Source: Adhaeribacter aerolatus
GTDB taxonomy: Bacteria > Bacteroidota > Bacteroidia > Cytophagales > Hymenobacteraceae
DNA: 55,051 nt
Assembly: GCF_007991635.1 (NCBI RefSeq)
Contig: NZ_BJYS01000050.1
Coordinates: 1 to 55,051, forward strand
Reading direction: 5' to 3'
Shown here: piece after piece, positions 35,853-49,810 of the stretch
Position numbering within the stretch: the first letter of the stretch is position 1
Layout: each line of letters opens with the position of its first letter
The notes under the pieces: generated by a model
Seen by the model: the letters and a program-made list of their open reading frames with translations, nothing else
The model's database searches: none
What the model was told of the DNA's origin: nothing
Translations under genes and position numbers: made by a program

Positions 35853-37127
35853 TTAAATAATAAAGTGATAAAACTCTGGGCGGTCGTTAATGTATTCGCA
35901 ATTAAAGTTACGATCGGCCATTCGCTTTACCAATGCTTGGAAATCGTCGCGGTTTTTTAGTTCTATGCCTACCAAGGCCGGGCCTTTTTCGCGGCTGTTT
36001 TTCTTGGTGTACTCAAAATGGGTTATATCGTCGGTAGGTCCCAAAATATCGTTTACGAACTCCTTTAAGGCACCGGCGCGTTGCGGGAAGTTTACGATAA
36101 AATAATGCTTCAGGCCTTCGTACAGCAACGAGCGCTCTTTAATTTCTTCGGTACGCGTAATATCGTTGTTGCCGCCGCTTACCACGCACACCACGTTTTT
36201 GCCTTTTATTTCGTCTTTAAAGAAGTCTAAAGCCGCAATAGATAAAGCACCAGCCGGTTCGGCCACAATGGCTTCTTCGTTGTAAAGCTGCAAAATGGTG
36301 GTACAGATTTTACCTTCGGGTATGGTTAGCATATCGTCCAGGTTTTCGCGGCAAATTTGGAAGGTTAAATCCCCTACCGATTTTACCGCCGCTCCATCTA
36401 CAAACTTATCGATCTGGTCGAGGGTTACTTTCTGGCCGGCTTCCAGCGATTTTTTCATGGAAGGCGCACCAGCCGGCTCCACCCCCACAACTTTGGTTTC
36501 AGGGCTCATCGCTTTAAAATAAGTAGAAACGCCGGCAGCCAGACCGCCACCGCCAACTGGTACAATTAGTAAATCTACCGGCCCTTTCATGTCTTCCAGA
36601 ATCTCTACGCCCACAGTGCCTTGCCCTTCAATTCCTTTGGGGTTATCGAAAGGATGAATGAACGCCATTTGATGCTGCTCTGAGAACTTAAGCGCTTCGT
36701 AATAACAATCATCAAAAGTATCGCCCACCAGTACTACCTCAGCGTGTTCGCGGCCAAATAATTGTACTTGTTTAATTTTTTGGTTGGGTGTGGTGATTGG
36801 CATAAAAATATGCCCCTTAATACCCATATAGTGGCACGAATAAGCTACGCCCTGGGCATGATTACCGGCACTGGCACAGACTACACCATTTTGTAACTGG
36901 TCCGCAGTCAGGCTTTTCATTATATTATAGGCACCGCGTAATTTATAAGAACGTACTACCTGTAAATCTTCCCGCTTCAGGTAAATATTTGCTTCGTACC
37001 GCTCCGATAAATTCATACTCCGGATAAGTGGCGTACGCACCACTACTTCCTTTAATCTTTCTTCGGCAGCTTGTATGCCCGCTACACTTACTTTATCTTT
37101 TACAGCTGCCTGCACTACTTCTGACAT
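35853..37127 (-). CDS. ilvA: Threonine dehydratase (threonine ammonia-lyase), biosynthetic
   Basis: A 424-residue PLP enzyme making 2-oxobutanoate from threonine, the first committed step of isoleucine synthesis. K62 in SYKLRGA forms the Schiff base. The phosphate-binding glycine loop is VGGGG (PVGGGGLAAG) and the Ser-rich SGNHAQGVA motif is present (SAGNHAQGVAYS). The C-terminal about 85 residues form one ACT-like regulatory domain (LKEFVNDILGPTDDIT), compared with two in E. coli IlvA, resembling the shorter Gram-positive type. It is the last gene of the ilv operon, 95 bp behind ilvC. Confidence 0.93.
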   Translation of the reverse strand: MSEVVQAAVKDKVSVAGIQAAEERLKEVVVRTPLIRSMNLSERYEANIYLKREDLQVVRSYKLRGAYNIMKSLTADQLQNGVVCASAGNHAQGVAYSCHYMGIKGHIFMPITTPNQKIKQVQLFGREHAEVVLVGDTFDDCYYEALKFSEQHQMAFIHPFDNPKGIEGQGTVGVEILEDMKGPVDLLIVPVGGGGLAAGVSTYFKAMSPETKVVGVEPAGAPSMKKSLEAGQKVTLDQIDKFVDGAAVKSVGDLTFQICRENLDDMLTIPEGKICTTILQLYNEEAIVAEPAGALSIAALDFFKDEIKGKNVVCVVSGGNNDITRTEEIKERSLLYEGLKHYFIVNFPQRAGALKEFVNDILGPTDDITHFEYTKKNSREKGPALVGIELKNRDDFQALVKRMADRNFNCEYINDRPEFYHFII

Positions 37128-37222
37128 TTGATTATCTTTTTAAATAAACTAAAAGACCACCGCAACAGAATAGGGTTTCATTCTTCTGTTACTGTGGCCT
37201 CATAGCTTTAAACTTTATATTA

Positions 37223-38269
37223 TTAGTTATTCTGCGGACGCAGTTTACGCACTTGCGCACCTGCCTGCCACATTTCTGAGTCGCGCAATTCTTTTAACTC
37301 CGCATCCAGTTTCTCGCGGTAATCTGGCTGGCTATTAGTATCGATAGAGCGCTGAGCTTCTTCGCCGGTAGCTACGCTTTCGTACAGTTCTTCGAACACA
37401 GGCGCTACCGCATCGCGGAATTTGTTTTTCCAGTCTAAGGCACCGCGCTGCGCAGTGGTAGAGCAGTTGGCGTACATCCAGTCCATACCGTTTTCGGCAA
37501 CTAATAGAATTAAGCTCTCGGTTAATTCTTCTACGGTTTCATTGAAAGACTCAGATGGCGAGTGACCTTTTTTGCGCAGCAGGTTGTATTGCGCTTCCAG
37601 GATACCCGCTAAAGCACCCATTAAAGTACCACGCTCACCGGTTAAGTCAGAATAAACTTCTTTTTTGAAATCAGTTTCGAATAAATAACCAGAACCAACA
37701 CCAATACCTAAGGCAACCGCTTTTTCACGAGCATTACCAGAAGCATCCTGATAAATGGCAAAGCTGGAGTTCAGACCTTTTCCTTCCAGGAACATGCGGC
37801 GTAAGCTGGTACCAGAACCTTTAGGCGCTACTAAAATAACATCTACATCTTTAGACGGCACAATACCGGTACGGTCGCTGAAAGTAACACCGAAACCATG
37901 TGAAAAGTAAAGGGTTTTACCTGGTTTCAGGGCTTTCTGTACCATTGGCCAAGCTGCAATTTGTCCGGCATCAGAAAGTAAGAACTGCAGAATAGTACCG
38001 CGTTCGCAAGCTTCTTCCAGCTCGAACAAAGTTTCACCTTCTACCCAGCCATCCTTCAGGGCTTTTTCCCAGGTTTTAGAATCTTTACGCTGGCCAACAA
38101 TTACGTTAAAACCGTTGTCGCGTAGGTTTAATGCCTGGCCAGGACCTTGCACGCCGTAACCTAATACTGCGATTGTTTCGTTTTTCAGTACTTCCCGGGC
38201 TTTGTCAAGTGGGAATTCTTCACGGGTTACTACGTTTTCTTCTGTTCCGCCGAAGTTAATTTTTGCCAT
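37223..38269 (-). CDS. ilvC: Ketol-acid reductoisomerase (NADP+)
   Basis: A 348-residue enzyme that converts 2-acetolactate to dihydroxyisovalerate, and the aceto-hydroxybutyrate homologue for isoleucine. The Rossmann motif is GYGVQGPGQALNLRDNG, and GQRKDSKTW follows in the coenzyme-binding loop. The catalytic acidic/His region is SDLTGERGTLMG, and NSQPDYREKL lies near the C-terminus. It is class I length. Several stretches (LNLRDNGFNVI, SHGFGVTF, VILVAPKGSG, SPSESFNETVEE, SQPDYREKL) resemble the fungal mitochondrial Ilv5 type more than the E. coli class II enzyme. Confidence 0.95.
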   Translation of the reverse strand: MAKINFGGTEENVVTREEFPLDKAREVLKNETIAVLGYGVQGPGQALNLRDNGFNVIVGQRKDSKTWEKALKDGWVEGETLFELEEACERGTILQFLLSDAGQIAAWPMVQKALKPGKTLYFSHGFGVTFSDRTGIVPSKDVDVILVAPKGSGTSLRRMFLEGKGLNSSFAIYQDASGNAREKAVALGIGVGSGYLFETDFKKEVYSDLTGERGTLMGALAGILEAQYNLLRKKGHSPSESFNETVEELTESLILLVAENGMDWMYANCSTTAQRGALDWKNKFRDAVAPVFEELYESVATGEEAQRSIDTNSQPDYREKLDAELKELRDSEMWQAGAQVRKLRPQNN

Positions 38270-38400: not shown

Positions 38401-38961
38401 CTACAAGTGTGCTTCTGCTTGTTCTCTTAAATAGGTGCTGAGATCTTTCATGTGCTTGGTAATAGCTACCCGGCCGGAACGCGAGAACTGCAGAATACCA
38501 AAGGGCTTTAGCTGCTCAAATAAAGCTTTTGTTTCTTCCAGGTGGCCCGTTTTCTCAATAATAATATATTGCGGGTCTACCGTTAAAATACGAGCGTAGC
38601 TATCGCGCACTATTTTTTCTACCTCGTGGCCACTGATCAGCGAAGTCATCGGTATTTTATACAGGGCCATTTCCTGAAATACGGTTTCGTCTTCGGGGTA
38701 AAAAGAAGCGCGCAGGACATCTACCTGTTTGGAGATCTGCTTCACCAGCTTTTCAACCTGCTCGTAACGCGCCCGGATTATAATGGTATAACGGTAAACA
38801 CCCGGCACCTCCGATTCAGAGGCCGTTAAGCTTTCGATATTTATATGTCGCCGGGTAAAAATAATGACTATCCGGTTCAGCAGACCTACTTTGTTTTCCG
38901 TAAAGGCAAATATGGTATAATTTCTTTCTTCTGAATCGGAATAATTGGGCGCTGTATCCAT
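38401..38961 (-). CDS. ilvN: Acetolactate synthase small (regulatory) subunit
   Basis: A 186-residue protein with an N-terminal ACT domain (about residues 14-90, NYTIFAFTENKVGLLNRI, TRRHINIESLTASESE) and the ALS small-subunit C-terminal domain (HEVEKIVRDSYARIL, LEETKALFEQLKPFGILQFSRSGRVAITK). It binds valine and restrains the IlvB catalytic subunit. It follows ilvB by 149 bp, a gap containing heptamer repeats, and precedes ilvC. Confidence 0.93.
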   Translation of the reverse strand: MDTAPNYSDSEERNYTIFAFTENKVGLLNRIVIIFTRRHINIESLTASESEVPGVYRYTIIIRARYEQVEKLVKQISKQVDVLRASFYPEDETVFQEMALYKIPMTSLISGHEVEKIVRDSYARILTVDPQYIIIEKTGHLEETKALFEQLKPFGILQFSRSGRVAITKHMKDLSTYLREQAEAHL

Positions 38962-39110: not shown

Positions 39111-40850
39111 TTAATCTAACCGGATATTAGCTACTGAATCGCCGGCCGGTACCATCGGGAACACGTTCTCTTCTTTCTCCACTACTACTTCCAGTAAGTA
39201 AGGACCATCGTGCTCTAACATTTCTTTAATTTGTCCTTGCAAATATTCGCGTTCGGTTACTTTGCTGCCGGCAATGCCGTAAGCTTTGGCAATTCCCACA
39301 AAATCAGGGTTAACCATTTCGGTAAACGAGTAGCGTTTCTGGTGGAAAAGCTGCTGCCATTGGCGTACCATTCCTAAGAAGTTGTTGTTCAGAATTACAA
39401 TCTTAACCCCAATCTGGTACTGGAAAATACAACCCAATTCCTGGATCGTCATCTGGAACCCGCCGTCGCCGATAACCGCAATTACCTGACGGTCGGGAGC
39501 ACCAACTTTGGCCCCCATGGCAGCCGGTAAACAAAAGCCCATCGTACCCAAGCCACCCGAGGTAATATTGCTGCGGGTTTCTTTAAAGTTATAGTAACGC
39601 ATCCCCACCATCTGGTGCTGCCCTACGTCGGTTACCAAAACGGCTTTCCCTTCGGTTAACTCCGAAATTATCCGCACGGCTTCACCCATCTGCAAGCCGG
39701 GTGTGCTCGGGTACAGTTGTTCCCGAATGACTTTATCGAACTCTATTTTATAAGCATCGAAAAAGCTTTGTACCCATTCTTTATGCTCCCGCTGTTCTAC
39801 CAGCGGCAACAAGGCTTGCAACGCTTCTTTGGCATCGGCGTTTACCGCTACATCAACCCGTACGTTTTTGTTTATTTCGGCCGGATCAATTTCAATATGA
39901 ATAATTTTGGCCTGCTTGGCATAACGTTTTAGATCGCCGGTTACGCGGTCGTCGAAACGCATACCAATGGCAATCAGCACATCGCACTCGTTTGTTTTCA
40001 GGTTAGGGCCGTAATTGCCGTGCATACCCAACATGCCCACGTTCAAAGGATGTTCGGTCTCCAGTCCTGATAACCCCAATATGGTCCAGGCAGCCGGTAA
40101 GCCCGCTTTCTCGATAAAAGCTTTAAAGTCTTCTTCGGCATGGCTTAACAGAACGCCTTGTCCCCAGATAACAAATGGCTTTTTGGCCTGGTTAATCAAT
40201 TCGGCGGCCGCTTCTACTTCGGCTAACTTTAACTTAGGTACCGGAATGTAGCTGGTAATTTTTTTCCACTTTTTATAGTTAAACTCAAAAGTGGCATTCT
40301 GCGCATCCTTGGTAATATCTATCAGTACCGGACCAGGCCGGCCGGAAGTGGCAATGTAAAATGCTTTGGCAATCGCTTCCGGAATTTCTTCGGCGCGGGT
40401 AACCTGATAACTCCATTTGGTAACCGGCATGGTTACCCCTAGTACATCGGTTTCCTGGAAAGCATCGGTACCCAACAAGTGCGAAAATACCTGCCCGGTA
40501 ATACAAACCATCGGGGTAGAATCTATCTGGGCATCGGCAATACCGGTAATTAAATTAGTAGCACCCGGGCCCGAAGTGGCAAAACAAACACCGGGTTTGC
40601 CGGTAATGCGGGCATAACCCTGCGCCGCGTGCGCCCCACCCTGCTCGTGCCGGACCAGATAATGCTTTAGTTGTTCGGAGAAATCATAGAGTGCATCGTA
40701 GATGGGCATGATAGCGCCACCCGGGTATCCAAAAATAGTATCGACCCCTTCTTCCAGCAACGACAGTAACACACCTTGCGCGCCGGTAACGAGCATCTTT
40801 TTGGGCTCGGTTTTCGGTTCCTTTTCCTTAATTTCTACTGCTACACTCAT
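39111..40850 (-). CDS. ilvB: Acetolactate synthase large (catalytic) subunit
   Basis: A 579-residue ThDP enzyme that condenses two pyruvates, or pyruvate with 2-oxobutanoate. The N-terminal PYR domain has the catalytic Glu region (FGYPGGAIMPIYDAL, RHEQGGAHAAQGYAR). The FAD-associated central domain follows, then the C-terminal PP domain with the ThDP/Mg motif GDGGFQMTIQELGCI and NNN (about 455-486). The length is standard. It is the second gene of the operon, 102 bp behind ilvD. Confidence 0.95.
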   Translation of the reverse strand: MSVAVEIKEKEPKTEPKKMLVTGAQGVLLSLLEEGVDTIFGYPGGAIMPIYDALYDFSEQLKHYLVRHEQGGAHAAQGYARITGKPGVCFATSGPGATNLITGIADAQIDSTPMVCITGQVFSHLLGTDAFQETDVLGVTMPVTKWSYQVTRAEEIPEAIAKAFYIATSGRPGPVLIDITKDAQNATFEFNYKKWKKITSYIPVPKLKLAEVEAAAELINQAKKPFVIWGQGVLLSHAEEDFKAFIEKAGLPAAWTILGLSGLETEHPLNVGMLGMHGNYGPNLKTNECDVLIAIGMRFDDRVTGDLKRYAKQAKIIHIEIDPAEINKNVRVDVAVNADAKEALQALLPLVEQREHKEWVQSFFDAYKIEFDKVIREQLYPSTPGLQMGEAVRIISELTEGKAVLVTDVGQHQMVGMRYYNFKETRSNITSGGLGTMGFCLPAAMGAKVGAPDRQVIAVIGDGGFQMTIQELGCIFQYQIGVKIVILNNNFLGMVRQWQQLFHQKRYSFTEMVNPDFVGIAKAYGIAGSKVTEREYLQGQIKEMLEHDGPYLLEVVVEKEENVFPMVPAGDSVANIRLD

Positions 40851-40952: not shown

Positions 40953-42656
40953 TTATCTATCGGTAACACAACCTTCCGATGCCGATGACACCGTTTTGGC
41001 ATATTTATATAATATACCGGAAGTTTTGCGCAAAGGCCGCTCCTGCCAGGCAGCCCGGCGGCGAACGATTTCCTCCTCACTCAGTTCTACTTCTAACCGG
41101 TTATTAACTGCATCAATGGTAATTTTATCGCCATCCTGCAGCAAACCAATCATGCCGCCCACGTGCGCTTCCGGCGTAATATGACCCACCACAAAGCCGT
41201 GCGTACCACCCGAGAACCGGCCATCGGTAATTAAAGCTACTGATTTACCTAACCCAGCACCCATAATTAAAGAAGTAGGTTTCAGCATTTCGGGCATACC
41301 GGGTCCGCCTTTCGGGCCTTCGTACCGGATTACCAAAACATCGCCTTCTTTTACTTTACCAGCTAGAATACCGTCGTTGGCTTCAAACTCCCCGTCAAAC
41401 ACCACAGCCGTACCGGTAAATATTTCGCCTTCTTTACCCGTGATTTTAGCCACGCCGCCTTGCTCCGCTAAGTTGCCGTAGAGAATGCGAATATGTCCGG
41501 TTTCTTTTATTGGTTTATCTAAAGGCATAATTACATCTTGCCCTTCGGCCATATCCGGCACGTTTTCCAGGTTCTCGGCTATGGTTTTACCGGTAACGGT
41601 TAAGCAATCGCCGTGCAGTAAACCAGCTTTCCATAACATTTTCATCACGGCCGGAATACCGCCAATTTTGTGTACCTGCTCCATGTGGTATTTACCACTC
41701 GGCTTCATATCGGCCAGCAAAGGCGTTTTATCGCTGATGCGCTGGAAATCATCGATGGTAATATCTACGCCAGCGGTTCGGGCAATAGCCAGCAGGTGCA
41801 GTACGGCATTGGTAGAACCACCTAAAACCGTAACCACTACCATGGCGTTTTCGAAAGCCTTTTTGGTTAAAATATCCAGCGGTTTAATGTCTTTCTCCAG
41901 CAACTGCCGAATAGCAATACCTGCCTGCACGCATTCTTCGCTTTTTTCGGTGCTGATTGCCGGGTTAGAAGAAGTATAAGGCAAAGCAATGCCTAATGCT
42001 TCGGCGGCGGAAGCCATGGTGTTGGCGGTGTACATACCACCGCACGCGCCGGCACCCGGACACGCATGTTCAATTACGCCTTTGAAATCTTCCGGCGAAA
42101 TAGTACCGGCATATTTTTCGCCGAGCGCTTCAAACGCCGAAACAATATCTAATCTTTTATCAGTGAATTTACCGGCGGCATCGCAGTAATTACCCGAAGC
42201 AATGGTACCACCATAAACCATGATGGCCGGGCGGTTTAAACGGGCAAAACTAATAAGCGCACCCGGCATATTTTTATCGCAGCCTACTACGGCAATTACG
42301 CCATCGTAGCTCTGGGCATTTACCACGGTTTCAATAGAATCCGCAATAATATCCCGCGAAGGCAAAGAATAACGCATACCCGGCGTTCCCATCGAAATGC
42401 CATCGCTTACCCCAATCGTATGAAATATTAAACCCAATACATCGTCGGTACTGTTAACGCCCTTTTTAACCAGTTTGGCTAAGTCGTTCAGGTGCATGTT
42501 ACAAGGGTTACCGTCGAAACCGGTACTTACAATACCCACCTGGGCTTTTTGCAAATCGGCATCGTTTAAGCCAATGGCGTGCAGCATGGCCTGAGCGGCC
42601 GGATTGGTTTCTTCCTGGGTAACCAGGTAGCTGTATCGGTTTAGTTTTGTACTCAT
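40953..42656 (-). CDS. ilvD: Dihydroxy-acid dehydratase
   Basis: A 567-residue Fe-S dehydratase that makes the 2-oxo acid precursors of valine and isoleucine. Cluster-ligand cysteines are C52 (GNPCNMHL), C125 (VGCDKNMPG, with K127, the usual Mg-binding carbamylated Lys) and C198/C204 ([17 protein letters not shown]). The C-terminal SGGTHG region is also present. It is the first structural gene of the operon. Its leader holds the attenuator described at 42719-42848. Confidence 0.95.
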
Positions 42657-42718
42657 GGTTTTAATTAGGGTATTAAAAATTTATTTAACACTAATGCTAT
42701 TTCGGTACCGGCACAGTT

Positions 42719-42752
42719 AAAAAAAAGCGCCACTCTTTCGGGAATGGCGCTT
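42719..42752 (-). terminator. Intrinsic terminator in the ilvD leader (attenuator)
   Basis: Read on the minus strand, an 8-bp GC-rich stem (AAGCGCCA at 42752-42745 with TGGCGCTT at 42732-42725) and a 12-nt loop are followed by a run of 8 U (42726-42719). It lies about 60 bp before the ilvD start, so it would stop transcription before the first structural gene. This is the termination half of an attenuator. Confidence 0.85.
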
Positions 42753-42773
42753 ATCTTCTATTTAAAAACAAAA

Positions 42774-42848
42774 TCACACCATTAACCGCTTAGCGTCGAT
42801 AATGACGCTAAAAATAATCTGGCTTAGGATGACGTGACGAAAGTTCAT
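42774..42848 (-). CDS. ilv leader peptide (attenuator ORF)
   Basis: A 24-codon ORF starts at the ATG at 42848 and ends with TGA at 42776-42774. It encodes the residues MNFRHVILSQ, then IIFSVIIDAK, then RLMV. Ten of the 24 residues are Ile, Val or Leu. An Ile-Ile pair (16-17) lies exactly in the loop of a perfect 8-bp hairpin (42790-42811). The purine-rich gagaaa just upstream could serve as ribosome site. It is too short for usual gene finders. The role is a control peptide for ribosome stalling when branched-chain aminoacyl-tRNA is scarce. It is not expected to have a function as a protein. Confidence 0.8.
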   Translation of the reverse strand: MNFRHVILSQIIFSVIIDAKRLMV

Positions 42849-43171
42849 TATTTTCTCTGTTCGGTAAATGTTTATTTTGGGCCGCTAAGTAATTAATAAT
42901 TCAGAACAAAACAAAATATAAATTTTAATTTCCGTACTATTTTTTCATATTGGCACCCACAAAACCTAATCAGAAGGCAATTAGATTAAATAATTTCAAA
43001 ATATTTAATACAAGTTAACCTTTCTGAGGCAATATTTAAAATTTTCCAATCGGGCTTTTGCCACCTTTTTTTGAGCCTGGCCAGCAGCAGAAAATTTTAT
43101 ACTTATTAAACTAATATTTAGAAAGTTAATTTCGATTACCCAATTTTGTAACGTACAAATTAATACAACGC
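42849..43171. promoter_or_regulatory. Divergent promoter region between ilvD leader and thrA
   Basis: The 323-bp AT-rich gap must contain both the ilv promoter (minus) and the thr/leu promoter (plus). A near match to the Bacteroidota -7 element (TATATTTTG on the minus strand, about 42927) is visible, but a good -33 TTTG partner is not. No thr leader peptide rich in Thr/Ile codons was found in front of thrA. Confidence 0.35.
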
Positions 43172-45616
43172 ATGGTAGTTCTTAAGTTTGGCGGTTCTTC
43201 GGTCAGTACTCCTGAAAATATTTTAAAAGTGCTGGACATTGTCCGATCGCATGCTTCTATTAAACAACTGGCAGTGGTTGTTTCGGCATTTGGCGGCCTT
43301 ACCGACCATTTACTGCACACGAGCCGGCTGGCTGAGCGCGGCGACGATAGCTTTAAACAGGAGTTAGTTAAAATTGAAGACCGGCACCTGGCCGCTATTA
43401 AAGATCTGATTCATGCCAAACGCCAAAGCTCTATTGTAGCCAACGTTAAGTTTATTCTGAACGAACTGGAAGACATTATGCAAGGTGTTTTCCTGGTAAA
43501 AGAGCTCAGCCCCAAAACTTTAGACTTTATTTTGAGTTTTGGCGAGCGCTTGTCGTCGTATATTATAGCCGAGGCTTTCAAAGAAAATGGCTTACCCGCG
43601 GCGGCCGTAGATTATCGCAACTTTATTATTACCGATAGTAATTTTGGCAACGCCCGCGTAAACTTTGAATTAACGAACCAGAATATTCAAAAATATTTTG
43701 CCGGCAACGAAAACCTGCTGGTAATACCGGGCTTCGTGGGTACCACCGAACACGGCACTACTACCACATTGGGTCGCGGCGGCTCCGATTATACCGCCGC
43801 CATTATTGCTGCGGCTATTGAGGCTTCAGGCCTGGAAATCTGGACTGATGTAAGTGGCATGATGACCGCTGACCCGCGCCGGGTTAAAAATGCGATTCCC
43901 ATTGAGGAAATGTCTTATGAAGAGGCGCTGGAGCTTTCGTATTTCGGGGCTAAAATTATTTATCCACCCACGATTCAACCAGCTCTGAGCCGCCATATTC
44001 CGATTAGGCTGAAAAACACGTTTGCGCCGGAGGCCTTTGGTACGCTTATTACCCATAGTCCGCGGCCAAGCGAAGCGCCGGTAAAAGGTATTTCTTCTAT
44101 CGAGCAAATTTCGTTGCTTACCATTTCGGGTAGCGGCATGGTGGGTGCTTCGGGCGTGGCCATGCGTTTCTTTGGGGCGCTGGGCCGTAAAGGCGTTAAC
44201 GTTATTTTAATTACTCAAGCTTCTTCGGAGCACTCTATTAGTATAGGTATTAACCAGAAAGATGCTACCCGGGCGCAACAAACCGTGGAAGAAGAATTCC
44301 GATTGGAAATGCAAGCCGGTATTGTAGATAAGGTGCAGATAGAAAACAACCTGGCGATTGTAGCACTGGTGGGCTCCAACATGAGAAATACGCCGGGTAT
44401 AGCGGGTAAACTTTTCAGTGCTTTAGGCCGCAACGGCATTAATATTAGTGCCATTGCACAGGGCACCTCGGAGCTGAATATCTCGTGCGTTATCCAGAAA
44501 AAAGACGAAGAAAAAGCACTTAATACCCTACACGAGTCGTTCTTCTTGTCGGAAACTAAAACCCTGCATTTGTTTGTGGTGGGCACCGGAACTGTAGGCG
44601 CAACTTTAATGGATCAAATTAGTGGTCAGGCGGCTAACTTATACAAAGGGCACAATATTGCTCTGAAATTAATTGGGTTATCTAATTCTAAAACTGCTAT
44701 TTTCAACGAAGCCGGTATTCCGCTGGACTCCTGCAAAGAAGCATTGCAAAATTCAACGCAGCCTTCTAACATTGAGACCTTTGTTGACAAAATTCTGGAG
44801 TTAAACCTGCCGAACGCCATTTTTGTGGATTGCACGGCCAGCGCCGAAGTAGCCTCGGTTTATAATACCTTGCTCGACAAAAGCATTTCGGTAGTAACAC
44901 CGAACAAAATAGCCGCCTCGGGTAATTACCATACTTATAAAGAATTAAAAACGCTAGCTGCCAAACGGGGCGTTAAATTTTTGTTCGAAACCAACGTAGG
45001 CGCCGGCTTGCCCATTATCAGCACGCTTAACGATTTAATCCGCAGCGGCGATACCGTGCTGAAGATTGAAGGTATTTTTTCGGGCACCATGAACTACCTG
45101 TTTAATACCGTTAGTGCCGATAAGAAATTAAGCACTGTGGTACAGGAAGCCATGGATCTGGGTTACGCCGAACCAGATCCGCGCATCGATTTAAGTGGCA
45201 AGGACGTGGCCCGCAAAATATTAATCTTGGCCCGCGAAACCGGCGAAAACCTGGAACTGGAAGATGTAGCTATTAAGCCATTTTTACCGGCTAACTGCTT
45301 ACAAGACGGACCAATGGATGAATTCTGGCAAAATCTGCGGGATTACGAAAATACCTTTGAAACCCAACGCGCCGAACTAGAAAACCAAGGCAAAGGCTAT
45401 CGCTTGATTGCAGCCTGGGAAGAAGGCAAAGCCCGCGTAGAGTTAAGGGAAATAGAAAAAGGTCATCCGTTTTATTCGGTATCGGGCTCCGACAATATTA
45501 TTCTGTTTACGACCGAGCGTTATAAAGTGCAGCCGCTAATTGTGAAAGGCTCCGGCGCTGGGGCTGAAGTAACGGCTGCTGGGGTATTTGCCGATATTAT
45601 CCGGATTGCCAGTTAA
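43172..45616 (+). CDS. thrA: Bifunctional aspartokinase I / homoserine dehydrogenase
   Basis: 814 residues combining two enzymes of the aspartate pathway. The N-terminal aspartate kinase starts VVLKFGGSSV and has a nucleotide-binding part with GFVGTTEHGTTTTLGRGGSDYTAA. Two ACT domains follow at about 315-460 (ISLLTISGSGM, NNLAIVALVGSNM). The homoserine dehydrogenase NAD(P) motif is VVGTGTVG (about residue 470), with catalytic residues near TPNKIAASG and KIEGIFSGTMNYL. Threonine feedback on the ACT domains is normal for this family. It is the first gene of the plus-strand thr-leu series and diverges from ilvD. Confidence 0.95.
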   Translation: MVVLKFGGSSVSTPENILKVLDIVRSHASIKQLAVVVSAFGGLTDHLLHTSRLAERGDDSFKQELVKIEDRHLAAIKDLIHAKRQSSIVANVKFILNELEDIMQGVFLVKELSPKTLDFILSFGERLSSYIIAEAFKENGLPAAAVDYRNFIITDSNFGNARVNFELTNQNIQKYFAGNENLLVIPGFVGTTEHGTTTTLGRGGSDYTAAIIAAAIEASGLEIWTDVSGMMTADPRRVKNAIPIEEMSYEEALELSYFGAKIIYPPTIQPALSRHIPIRLKNTFAPEAFGTLITHSPRPSEAPVKGISSIEQISLLTISGSGMVGASGVAMRFFGALGRKGVNVILITQASSEHSISIGINQKDATRAQQTVEEEFRLEMQAGIVDKVQIENNLAIVALVGSNMRNTPGIAGKLFSALGRNGINISAIAQGTSELNISCVIQKKDEEKALNTLHESFFLSETKTLHLFVVGTGTVGATLMDQISGQAANLYKGHNIALKLIGLSNSKTAIFNEAGIPLDSCKEALQNSTQPSNIETFVDKILELNLPNAIFVDCTASAEVASVYNTLLDKSISVVTPNKIAASGNYHTYKELKTLAAKRGVKFLFETNVGAGLPIISTLNDLIRSGDTVLKIEGIFSGTMNYLFNTVSADKKLSTVVQEAMDLGYAEPDPRIDLSGKDVARKILILARETGENLELEDVAIKPFLPANCLQDGPMDEFWQNLRDYENTFETQRAELENQGKGYRLIAAWEEGKARVELREIEKGHPFYSVSGSDNIILFTTERYKVQPLIVKGSGAGAEVTAAGVFADIIRIAS

Positions 45617-48625: not shown

Positions 48626-49810
48626 ATGAACGACAAGGTCTATATCTTCGACACCACGCTGCGCGACGGCGAACAGGTTCCCGGTTGTCAGCTTAACACC
48701 CGCGAAAAAATTGAGGTGGCTCTGGCCCTGGAAGAACTAGGCGTTGATATAATTGAGGCTGGCTTCCCTATTTCCAGCCCCGGCGACTTTGCTTCAATCG
48801 TTGAAATTTCGAAAGCGGTTTCAGAACCGGTTATTTGTGCCTTAACCCGCGCTAAGAAAGAAGATATAGATGTGGCCGTAGAGTCGTTGAAATTTGCCAA
48901 GCGCAAGCGTATTCATACCGGCATTGGTGCTTCTGATATGCATATTAAGCATAAATTTAATTCTACCCGCGAAGATGTACTCGAACGCGGTGTTTGGGCC
49001 GTGCAATACGCCAAGCAATTTGTAGAAGACATAGAATTTTACGCCGAAGATGCTGGTCGGGCCGATTTGCCTTTCTTGGCCCAGATGGTGGAAGCGGTTA
49101 TTGCCGCTGGCGCTACCGTGGTAAATATTCCGGATACCACCGGCTATACTTTGCCCTGGGACTATGGCCAGAAAATAAAATACCTCCGCGAAAACGTAAA
49201 AAATATAGATAAAGCCATCATCTCGGTGCATTGCCACAACGATTTAGGTTTGGCTACCGCTAACTCTATTGCAGGCGTTATGAACGGTGCCCGCCAGATT
49301 GAGTGTACCATTAACGGTATTGGCGAACGGGCTGGTAATACCTCTTTGGAAGAAGTGGTGATGATTATGAAGAGTCACAAAGAGCTGGATTTAAATACCG
49401 GTATCAACTCCAAACGCATTTACCCCGTCAGCCGCTTAGTTTCAAGGTTGATGAGGATGCGTGTGCAGCCAAATAAAGCCATAGTAGGCGACAATGCCTT
49501 TGCGCACTCTTCTGGTATTCACCAAGACGGCTTCCTGAAACACCGCGAAACGTACGAGGTAATCGATCCGCACGATGTGGGCGTAGATAACTCTAAAATT
49601 GTATTAACCGCCCGCAGCGGCCGCGCCGCTTTAAAGCACCGGATGGAAAACCTGGGCTACTTTATCTCAAAAGAAGAGCTCGATGAAATTTATAAAGATT
49701 ACTTAGTGTTAGCAGATGAGGTAAAAGTTGTAAATGACGACCACCTGGGCGTACTTTACCAAAAAATTGAGACGAAGAAAGAGAAGGCAGGTATTAAAGC
49801 TAATATTTAG
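48626..49810 (+). CDS. leuA: 2-isopropylmalate synthase, short form without regulatory domain
   Basis: A 394-residue HMGL-type TIM barrel. It starts [13 protein letters not shown] (catalytic Arg/Asp region), and the metal-binding HCHNDLGLA and [13 protein letters not shown] follow. The C-terminal subdomain reaches HSSGIHQDG and [13 protein letters not shown]. It ends about 100 residues short of the E. coli/Mycobacterium enzyme, so the leucine-binding LeuA dimerisation (regulatory) domain is missing. It condenses acetyl-CoA with 2-oxoisovalerate, the first step of leucine synthesis. leuC follows by 2 nt. Confidence 0.93.

Follow-up and report, generated by a model that had tools for sequence, protein, structure and literature searches.

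A predicted ribosome-mediated attenuator upstream of ilvD in Adhaeribacter aerolatus, and similar leaders in other Bacteroidota

In Proteobacteria and Actinobacteria, the control of amino-acid operons by leader-peptide attenuation is a classical mechanism. The locus described here raises the question whether the isoleucine/valine genes of Adhaeribacter aerolatus, a member of the Bacteroidota, are preceded by a device of this kind, and how widely such a device occurs in the phylum.

The ilvD leader and its conservation in the genus

The window, i.e. the whole stretch of DNA that was analysed (55,051 nt), contains a five-gene minus-strand cluster, ilvD-ilvB-ilvH-ilvC-ilvA (42656-35853, NCBIfam assignments), which is separated by 515 nt from the divergent thrA (43172, plus strand); thrB and thrC come after thrA. 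The sequence-only reading of this DNA had placed a leader ORF of 24 codons before ilvD. It is present at 42848-42774 on the minus strand, and 10 of its 24 residues are Ile, Val or Leu (Table 1). The perfect 8-bp hairpin with an Ile-Ile loop that had been described within the ORF is formed by UUAGCGUC and GACGCUAA around a 6-nt loop, AUUAUC. The proposed antiterminator, AAUGGUG with CGCCAUU, is longer than claimed, i.e. 8 contiguous pairs are joined by 3 further ones (CGG/CCG). The U-tailed terminator has an 8-bp stem that includes one G-U pair and can be extended to 11 pairs; of the 8 U, 2 are pairable. The segment GCGCCAUU is common to the antiterminator pairing and to the 5' arm of the terminator, which ends 68 nt before ilvD.

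Table 1. Features of the ilv locus (positions in the window)
Feature	Position	Strand	Basis or remark
Possible -33 element TTTG of a Bacteroidota-type promoter, weak	42912..42915	-	inferred from consensus
Possible -7 element TTACTTAG, 19 nt after TTTG	42885..42892	-	consensus guess; not among sigma-70-like sites
Leader ORF MNFRHVILSQIIFSVIIDAKRLMV followed by stop, 24 codons	42774..42848	-	start, frame and stop kept in 8/8 genus genomes, no indels
8-bp ORF-internal hairpin, probable pause/protector; loop = Ile16-Ile17 codons	42790..42811	-	fold; all genus cells paired
Control codons Ile16-Ile17 (AUU AUC), final Ile codons ahead of the predicted switch point	42798..42803	-	genus alignment, switch model
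Antiterminator 5' strand CGGUUAAUGGUGU, ORF tail to stop codon	42776..42788	-	duplex prediction
Antiterminator 3' strand GCGCCAUUCCCG, terminator 5' arm and loop start	42739..42750	-	duplex prediction
Intrinsic terminator hairpin, 11 pairs, 6 G-C	42725..42752	-	core pairs kept in 8/8 genus genomes
Terminator U tract, 8 U, first two able to pair in stem	42719..42726	-	sequence
ilvD, dihydroxy-acid dehydratase, first regulated gene	40953..42656	-	TIGR00110, 738 bits vs cut-off 618
ilvB, acetolactate synthase large subunit	39111..40850	-	TIGR00118
ilvH/ilvN, acetolactate synthase small subunit	38401..38961	-	TIGR00119
ilvC, ketol-acid reductoisomerase	37223..38269	-	TIGR00465
ilvA, threonine ammonia-lyase; same-transcript membership uncertain	35853..37127	-	hairpin and T tract in ilvC-ilvA gap

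The stability of the 149-nt stretch, which the same reading had proposed to check by folding, is well above that of shuffled sequences (z -3.31; 1 of 200 shuffles equally stable). The antiterminator duplex by itself shows a modest gain (z -1.50; 7 of 100 shuffles as good). Within 42600-43200 the leader terminator is the only terminator-like site, 0.3 being expected, and the sole plus-strand terminator in 42700-43171 is the reverse side of the same hairpin. The combination of a short I/L/V-rich ORF and a terminator at 40-70 nt occurs at one minus-strand place in the whole window, the ilvD leader; on the plus strand there are two places, whose terminators are weak (about -10 kcal/mol). A search for a short ORF rich in Ile/Val/Leu and followed by a terminator was negative upstream of the divergent thrA, and likewise before leuA (a leuA-type match lies at 48635-49792; 571.8 bits, under its cut-off). 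We also note a hairpin with a short T tract in the ilvC-ilvA gap (37128-37222, minus strand), about 28 nt before ilvA and with an energy of -17.6 kcal/mol; it may be a transcript end before ilvA or a means of tuning ilvA separately.

A promoter region upstream of the leader had also been claimed, and this part did not stand up well: what is found is consensus-like only, and promoter-like sites are no commoner than in shuffles. In Bacteroidota the -33 box is TTTG, to which the first element of Table 1 corresponds. The -7 box consensus is given as TAnnTTTG in the accessible text of PMC9723704, and the TTAGCG of the putative -7 region is kept in 7 of the 8 genus upstream sequences. Judged by these motifs, transcription would start near 42880. 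The minus strand also carries one sigma-70-like site (42874-42847), the number of such sites being at chance level; if it were used, transcription would start inside or after the leader, i.e. too late.

The element was recovered in all 8 genus genomes by DNA search, the ilvD genes of the other seven being 89-98% identical to that of A. aerolatus. Leader ORF and terminator are kept in every one of them (8/8; shuffle expectation 0.05), as is the antiterminator. The first ten leader codons diverge without indels, as in MNFRHVILSQ, MNFNTVILSQ and MLFTSSVLNR. Codons 11-24 read II(F/L)SVIIDAKR(L/W)MV in 8/8 genomes, so that Ile11, 12, 16 and 17 are present throughout. There are 7, 8 and 13 variable leader sites at codon positions 1, 2 and 3, respectively, which is a mild coding signature. 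Codons 11-24 are near-invariant largely at silent sites as well, which implies that the RNA itself is constrained.

The inner hairpin is paired in 100% of cells in the 8 genus sequences, with 7 of its 8 pairs invariant; the pairs of the inner hairpin and the terminator taken together are intact in 97% of cells, and those of the antiterminator are formed in 64 of 64 cells (100%). Two-sided changes are seen in none of the 19 pairs of inner hairpin and terminator, nor in the antiterminator, where the pairs likewise hardly vary. Covariation, which the sequence-only reading had suggested as a check, is uninformative within the genus because the paired sites vary too little. The spacing from the leader stop to the U tract is confined to 49-51 nt, and the distance from the U tract to ilvD ranges from 67 to 147 nt.

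A folding model of the proposed switch

The nascent RNA up to nt 111 was folded downstream of a model ribosome, placing each codon in the A site in turn; the ribosome's footprint was assumed to reach 15 nt beyond the start of the P codon. With the A site at codons 2-18 all 8 antiterminator pairs are formed, codon 19 leaves 6 of the 8, and codons 20-25 leave none. A relative from the genus (L085) follows the same course, with 6-8 pairs through codon 19, then zero from codon 20 on. The final Ile ahead of this modelled edge is codon 17. The description as an Ile/Val/Leu leader thus holds in part, i.e. the model points mainly to Ile, with a possible contribution from Val15, because Leu22 and Val24 lie past the predicted switch point.

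Folded without a ribosome, the first 75 nt bind the ORF tail in the upstream segment (-17.8 kcal/mol), and the lowest-energy fold of the 111-nt RNA is the antiterminator (-27.0 kcal/mol). For the full-length RNA the structure with the terminator is always the most stable, which means that the choice between the two structures must be kinetic. The energies of terminators and duplexes were calculated with simple models that ignore kinetics. The inner hairpin is near-invariant but by itself does not hold the antiterminator strand. The outer 1:2 helix, which appears in the minimum-energy fold, is weakly supported: it is paired in 76% of genus cells, with a z of 0.57 in the window and a mean z of -0.63 over 63 leaders. 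In one clade this helix appeared by eye to be able to re-form in a shifted register.

The sequence of events that we propose is the following. RNA polymerase would start upstream of 42848 and a ribosome would begin the leader ORF close behind it. If charged Ile-tRNA is scarce, the ribosome would stall at Ile11-12 or Ile16-17, to which Val15 may contribute. The stalled ribosome would open the ORF-internal hairpin while the ORF tail stays free, and this tail could then pair with the emerging GCGCCAUU; no terminator would form, and ilvD and the downstream genes would be transcribed. With ample Ile the ribosome would reach the stop codon and cover the tail, the terminator would form, and transcription would end before ilvD.

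Leaders upstream of ilvD in other Bacteroidota

Two scans were made. In the first, the 450 nt upstream of ilvD were searched for ORFs of 8-45 codons that begin with AUG, contain a run of 8 codons of which 5 or more are I/L/V, and are followed by a terminator at most 160 nt after the stop. Besides the 8/8 of the genus, matches were found in 20 of 62 other genomes of the family (shuffle mean 0.5), at 35 of 80 named loci, these being the best 80 of 577 confirmed (shuffle mean 0.25), and at 37 of 131 loci that make up the phylum sample together with the two remaining family loci (shuffle mean 0.4). The reverse strand gave 10 matches in 150, with a spacing scattered over 29-153 nt. Among the named matches are Aquimarina, Tenacibaculum, Winogradskyella, Arenibacter, a Maribacter MAG and Saprospiraceae. 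Between genera the peptides vary widely (e.g. MKPFITIIIIIVVVIII, MRLQSVISIIVIIPLPQGG and MLSTVISLVIIRVIGITYRPGKALC). A few of the 100 survey matches, such as L069 and L185, have a peptide or a spacing that makes them look spurious.

Although up to 160 nt were permitted, the distance from the leader stop to the U tract has a median of 55 nt (48-67) in 63 leaders and of 50 nt (44-78) in the other 37; from the U tract to ilvD the survey as a whole gives 7 to 336 nt. The duplex between the ORF tail and the terminator is more stable than in shuffles, with a mean z of -2.62 (63 leaders) and -2.54 (37 leaders), and at most 5 of 100 shuffles were as good for 44/63 and 24/37 leaders. The midpoint of the antiterminator strand falls within 12 nt of the end of the stop codon in 60/63 (null 30.5) and 30/37 leaders (null 16.8). 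Ile and Val make up 747 of the 1576 codons before the predicted switch versus 41 of the 524 after it; shuffling the codon order gave 593.6 +/- 9.3 Ile/Val codons before the switch, the highest of 1000 shuffles being 620. In 99 of 100 leaders the last Ile or Val lies 0-3 codons ahead of the switch. The contrast between codons before and after the switch is partly built in, because AU-rich codons pair poorly with a G-C-rich arm.

In the second scan the spacing was set to 40-70 nt and the search was extended up to 1400 nt upstream of ilvD. Here, 129 of 281 loci have a match on the sense strand, as against a single one on the opposite strand (1/281); the 129 are distributed as 8/8 in the genus, 33/64 in the rest of the family, 49/80 among the named loci and 39/129 in the phylum sample. 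Of the family sample, 72 of 120 genomes have an ilvD match and all 72 were examined; of the phylum sample, 218 of 296 genomes matched, two of which (G000 and G011) were already included, 129 were added and 87 were left out. Of the 129 added loci, 12 have distant homologues and most have closer ones; species may overlap between the named and the remaining locus sets. A 34% paralogue (L002) and the second copies of genus loci (L112-L119) were dropped before the counts. As a further control, the scan was run on 450-nt stretches elsewhere in these loci, with 47 matches in 1080, 29 of them at a spacing of 44-67 nt. This control was set aside as a background because it picks up real-looking units: at 27 loci the best unit lies 468-1222 nt upstream of ilvD. 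The reverse-strand control, 1/281, was taken instead.

The device is clearly not universal in the phylum. The second scan gave no match at 152 of the 281 loci, which include many members of the family and all 12 loci with the most distant IlvD (43-47% identity). Some misses may reflect an ilvD that is not the first gene of its operon, or little upstream DNA; loci fetched as regions carry about 650 nt upstream, and their match rate is a lower bound.

Two or more leader/terminator units in series are present at 27 of 281 loci. The second unit of one of these (L033) looks spurious, which leaves about 26. In total 157 units were counted at 129 loci, and Oceanihabitans sediminis (L064) has three in series; the tandem loci further include L020, L021, L034, L077, L009, L016, L058, L102 and L103. 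Aquimarina is among the genera with tandem units. The upstream units resemble the single ones both in mean antiterminator z (-2.74 vs -2.50) and in having the last Ile or Val at most 3 codons before the switch (28/28 vs 101/102). The U tracts of tandem units are 125-222 nt apart. At two loci (L009 and L104) ilvE lies between the units and ilvD (TIGR01122, above cut-off). An example of tandem attenuators is known from Salmonella, at mgtCBR, as far as the accessible text of PMC3641672 goes. For tandem amino-acid leaders in Bacteroidota, a narrow search for tandem attenuators in the open-licence literature found no report. These units pose the question of why the same amino acids should be checked twice or three times.

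Alternative explanations, related leaders and known systems

The same genome has candidates for further leader peptides. Upstream of a trpE-like gene (L293, contig C16; 396.7 bits, below the family cut-off) lies the ORF MKNITLHTAGWWHLLEN, which contains two adjacent Trp codons and is followed, 73 nt past its stop, by the U tract of a terminator of -16.5 kcal/mol. We regard this ORF and its terminator as a probable trp attenuator; in the duplex test its antiterminator was no better than shuffles (z 0.12). Another ORF, MSTSKKNISSPVSTEVFSGSPATFLHCFHHHHSSHEE, lies 208 nt upstream of hisG (L291, contig C7; 190.5 bits). It contains HCFHHHHSSH, ends in LHCFHHHHSSHEE, and is probably a His leader peptide. 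No terminator passing the filter was found in the hisG leader; judged by eye, its 3' end can pair with the stretch just before AUUUUU. Judged by these sequences, leader peptides appear to serve at least three pathways in this organism. The Rfam family Bacteroid-trp (RF01692), which we take to be a Trp leader, has no match in the Adhaeribacter genome, and the control genome of Bacteroides ihuae does match it.

Other explanations of the ilvD leader can be weighed against these data. We consider it very improbable that the terminator is operated by a riboswitch, a T-box or a protein-bound leader, the ORF being incidental. The strong nucleotide conservation of codons 11-24, largely at silent sites too, would fit such an element as well. 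However, no T-box, riboswitch or other Rfam family matches at gathering score in the window, and the unlike leaders of other genera share Ile/Val codons and spacing, which a shared aptamer does not predict. The one weak match (Thr_leader, RF00506, at 42719-42829 on the minus strand; 28.8 bits against a cut-off of 55, E 0.0023) belongs itself to a leader-peptide family; it shows no homology and is a likeness of architecture.

Still less probable is a hairpin that acts as a plain terminator or as a 5' stabilising stem and keeps ilvD at a constant basal level, the ORF being due to chance or merely structural. It would agree with the modest antiterminator score against shuffles, and regulation at this locus is itself a prediction; but the frame is kept in 8/8 genomes, with no indels among the diverging first ten codons, and neither the spacing nor the codon content found across the phylum would be expected. 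Least probable is that the leader governs ilvD translation (by reinitiation or translational attenuation) or encodes a functional micropeptide and has no part in termination: the conserved C-terminal SVIIDAKRxMV (8/8) and the peak of leader genes at short main-gene distances in Bacteroidetes (accessible text of PMC4833913) speak for it, but the leader stop is 117 nt from the ilvD start as compared to a peak of 11-14 nt in that source, within the genus the gap between U tract and ilvD differs widely while that from stop to U tract is nearly constant, and the antiterminator strand accounts for the C-terminal conservation as well.

A ribosome-mediated transcription attenuator that senses Ile, with Val in a secondary role, is therefore in our judgement the very probable nature of the ilvD leader. 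This was the central claim of the sequence-only reading, and it is supported by the conservation in the genus, the leaders across the phylum, the antiterminator at the stop codon and the trp and his leaders. For the phylum we go less far, and lean slightly towards the view that attenuation is an ordinary control of branched-chain amino-acid operons across much of Bacteroidota, that it takes a compact form in which the ORF tail serves as the antiterminator strand and translation of the leader probably begins with no Shine-Dalgarno pairing, and that the units are stacked in several lineages. If this is true, transcription and translation would be closely coupled in Bacteroidota, and where units are stacked the polymerase would pass several amino-acid checks.

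With the ilv, leu and thr attenuators of Proteobacteria the ilvD leader shares control codons for the end product, an antiterminator that competes with a terminator, predicted masking at the stop codon and a position before the first gene. It differs from them in that it has two Ile-Ile pairs and no long run of control codons, that its antiterminator strand is the ORF tail itself, and that its AUG has, by eye, no clear Shine-Dalgarno-like sequence. Surveys by Lyubetsky's group (2007, 2010), which PMC4833913 cites, may already list Bacteroidetes cases. Bacteroidota mRNAs are mostly without Shine-Dalgarno sites according to the accessible text of PMC9723704, which also suggests leader-peptide attenuators before amino-acid operons of Flavobacterium psychrophilum. 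In the general description given there, phylum, gene class and proposed mechanism are as here; it is at this level, without operon, codons or antiterminator, that the two can be compared. Bacteroid-trp, listed as probably cis-regulatory in Table 1 of PMC2864571 (accessible part), is a cis-regulatory element of the same phylum that differs from the ilvD leader in operon and sequence. The earlier statement that such attenuators are much less documented in Bacteroidota is thus right, but undocumented they are not, given these two precedents. In other words, attenuators of this type are already noted in the phylum, and it is their breadth and tandem use that we did not find described in the sources as accessible.

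Among more remote cases, the Corynebacterium ilvBNC leader (PMC10272879 and PMC11857589, accessible parts) is a leader-based regulation of branched-chain amino-acid genes outside Proteobacteria, in another phylum and with another gene order. Some sORFs of B. thetaiotaomicron are called 'reminiscent of leader peptides' in the accessible text of PMC7366714, and the ilvD motif of Veillonella, as presented in that of PMC8632094, is a different element.

From the leaders one can predict, in a form open to testing, how the synthesis of isoleucine and valine is controlled in many members of a large phylum that has been little studied; they also offer an indirect test of whether ribosomes trail RNA polymerase closely in Bacteroidota. 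The leader ORFs are, moreover, short genes of a kind that automatic annotation tends to overlook.

Two observations concern ilvD itself. At E <= 0.001, no ilvD match was obtained for 48 of the 120 genomes of the family sample, so many members of the family may have lost the synthesis of branched-chain amino acids. The IlvD proteins of the genus are 68-73% identical to those of Saprospiraceae, Flavobacteriaceae and others (among the best 80 of 577 confirmed loci), and their identity to other genera of their own family is lower, 59-65%; this closeness to outside families suggests transfer or an old paralogue.
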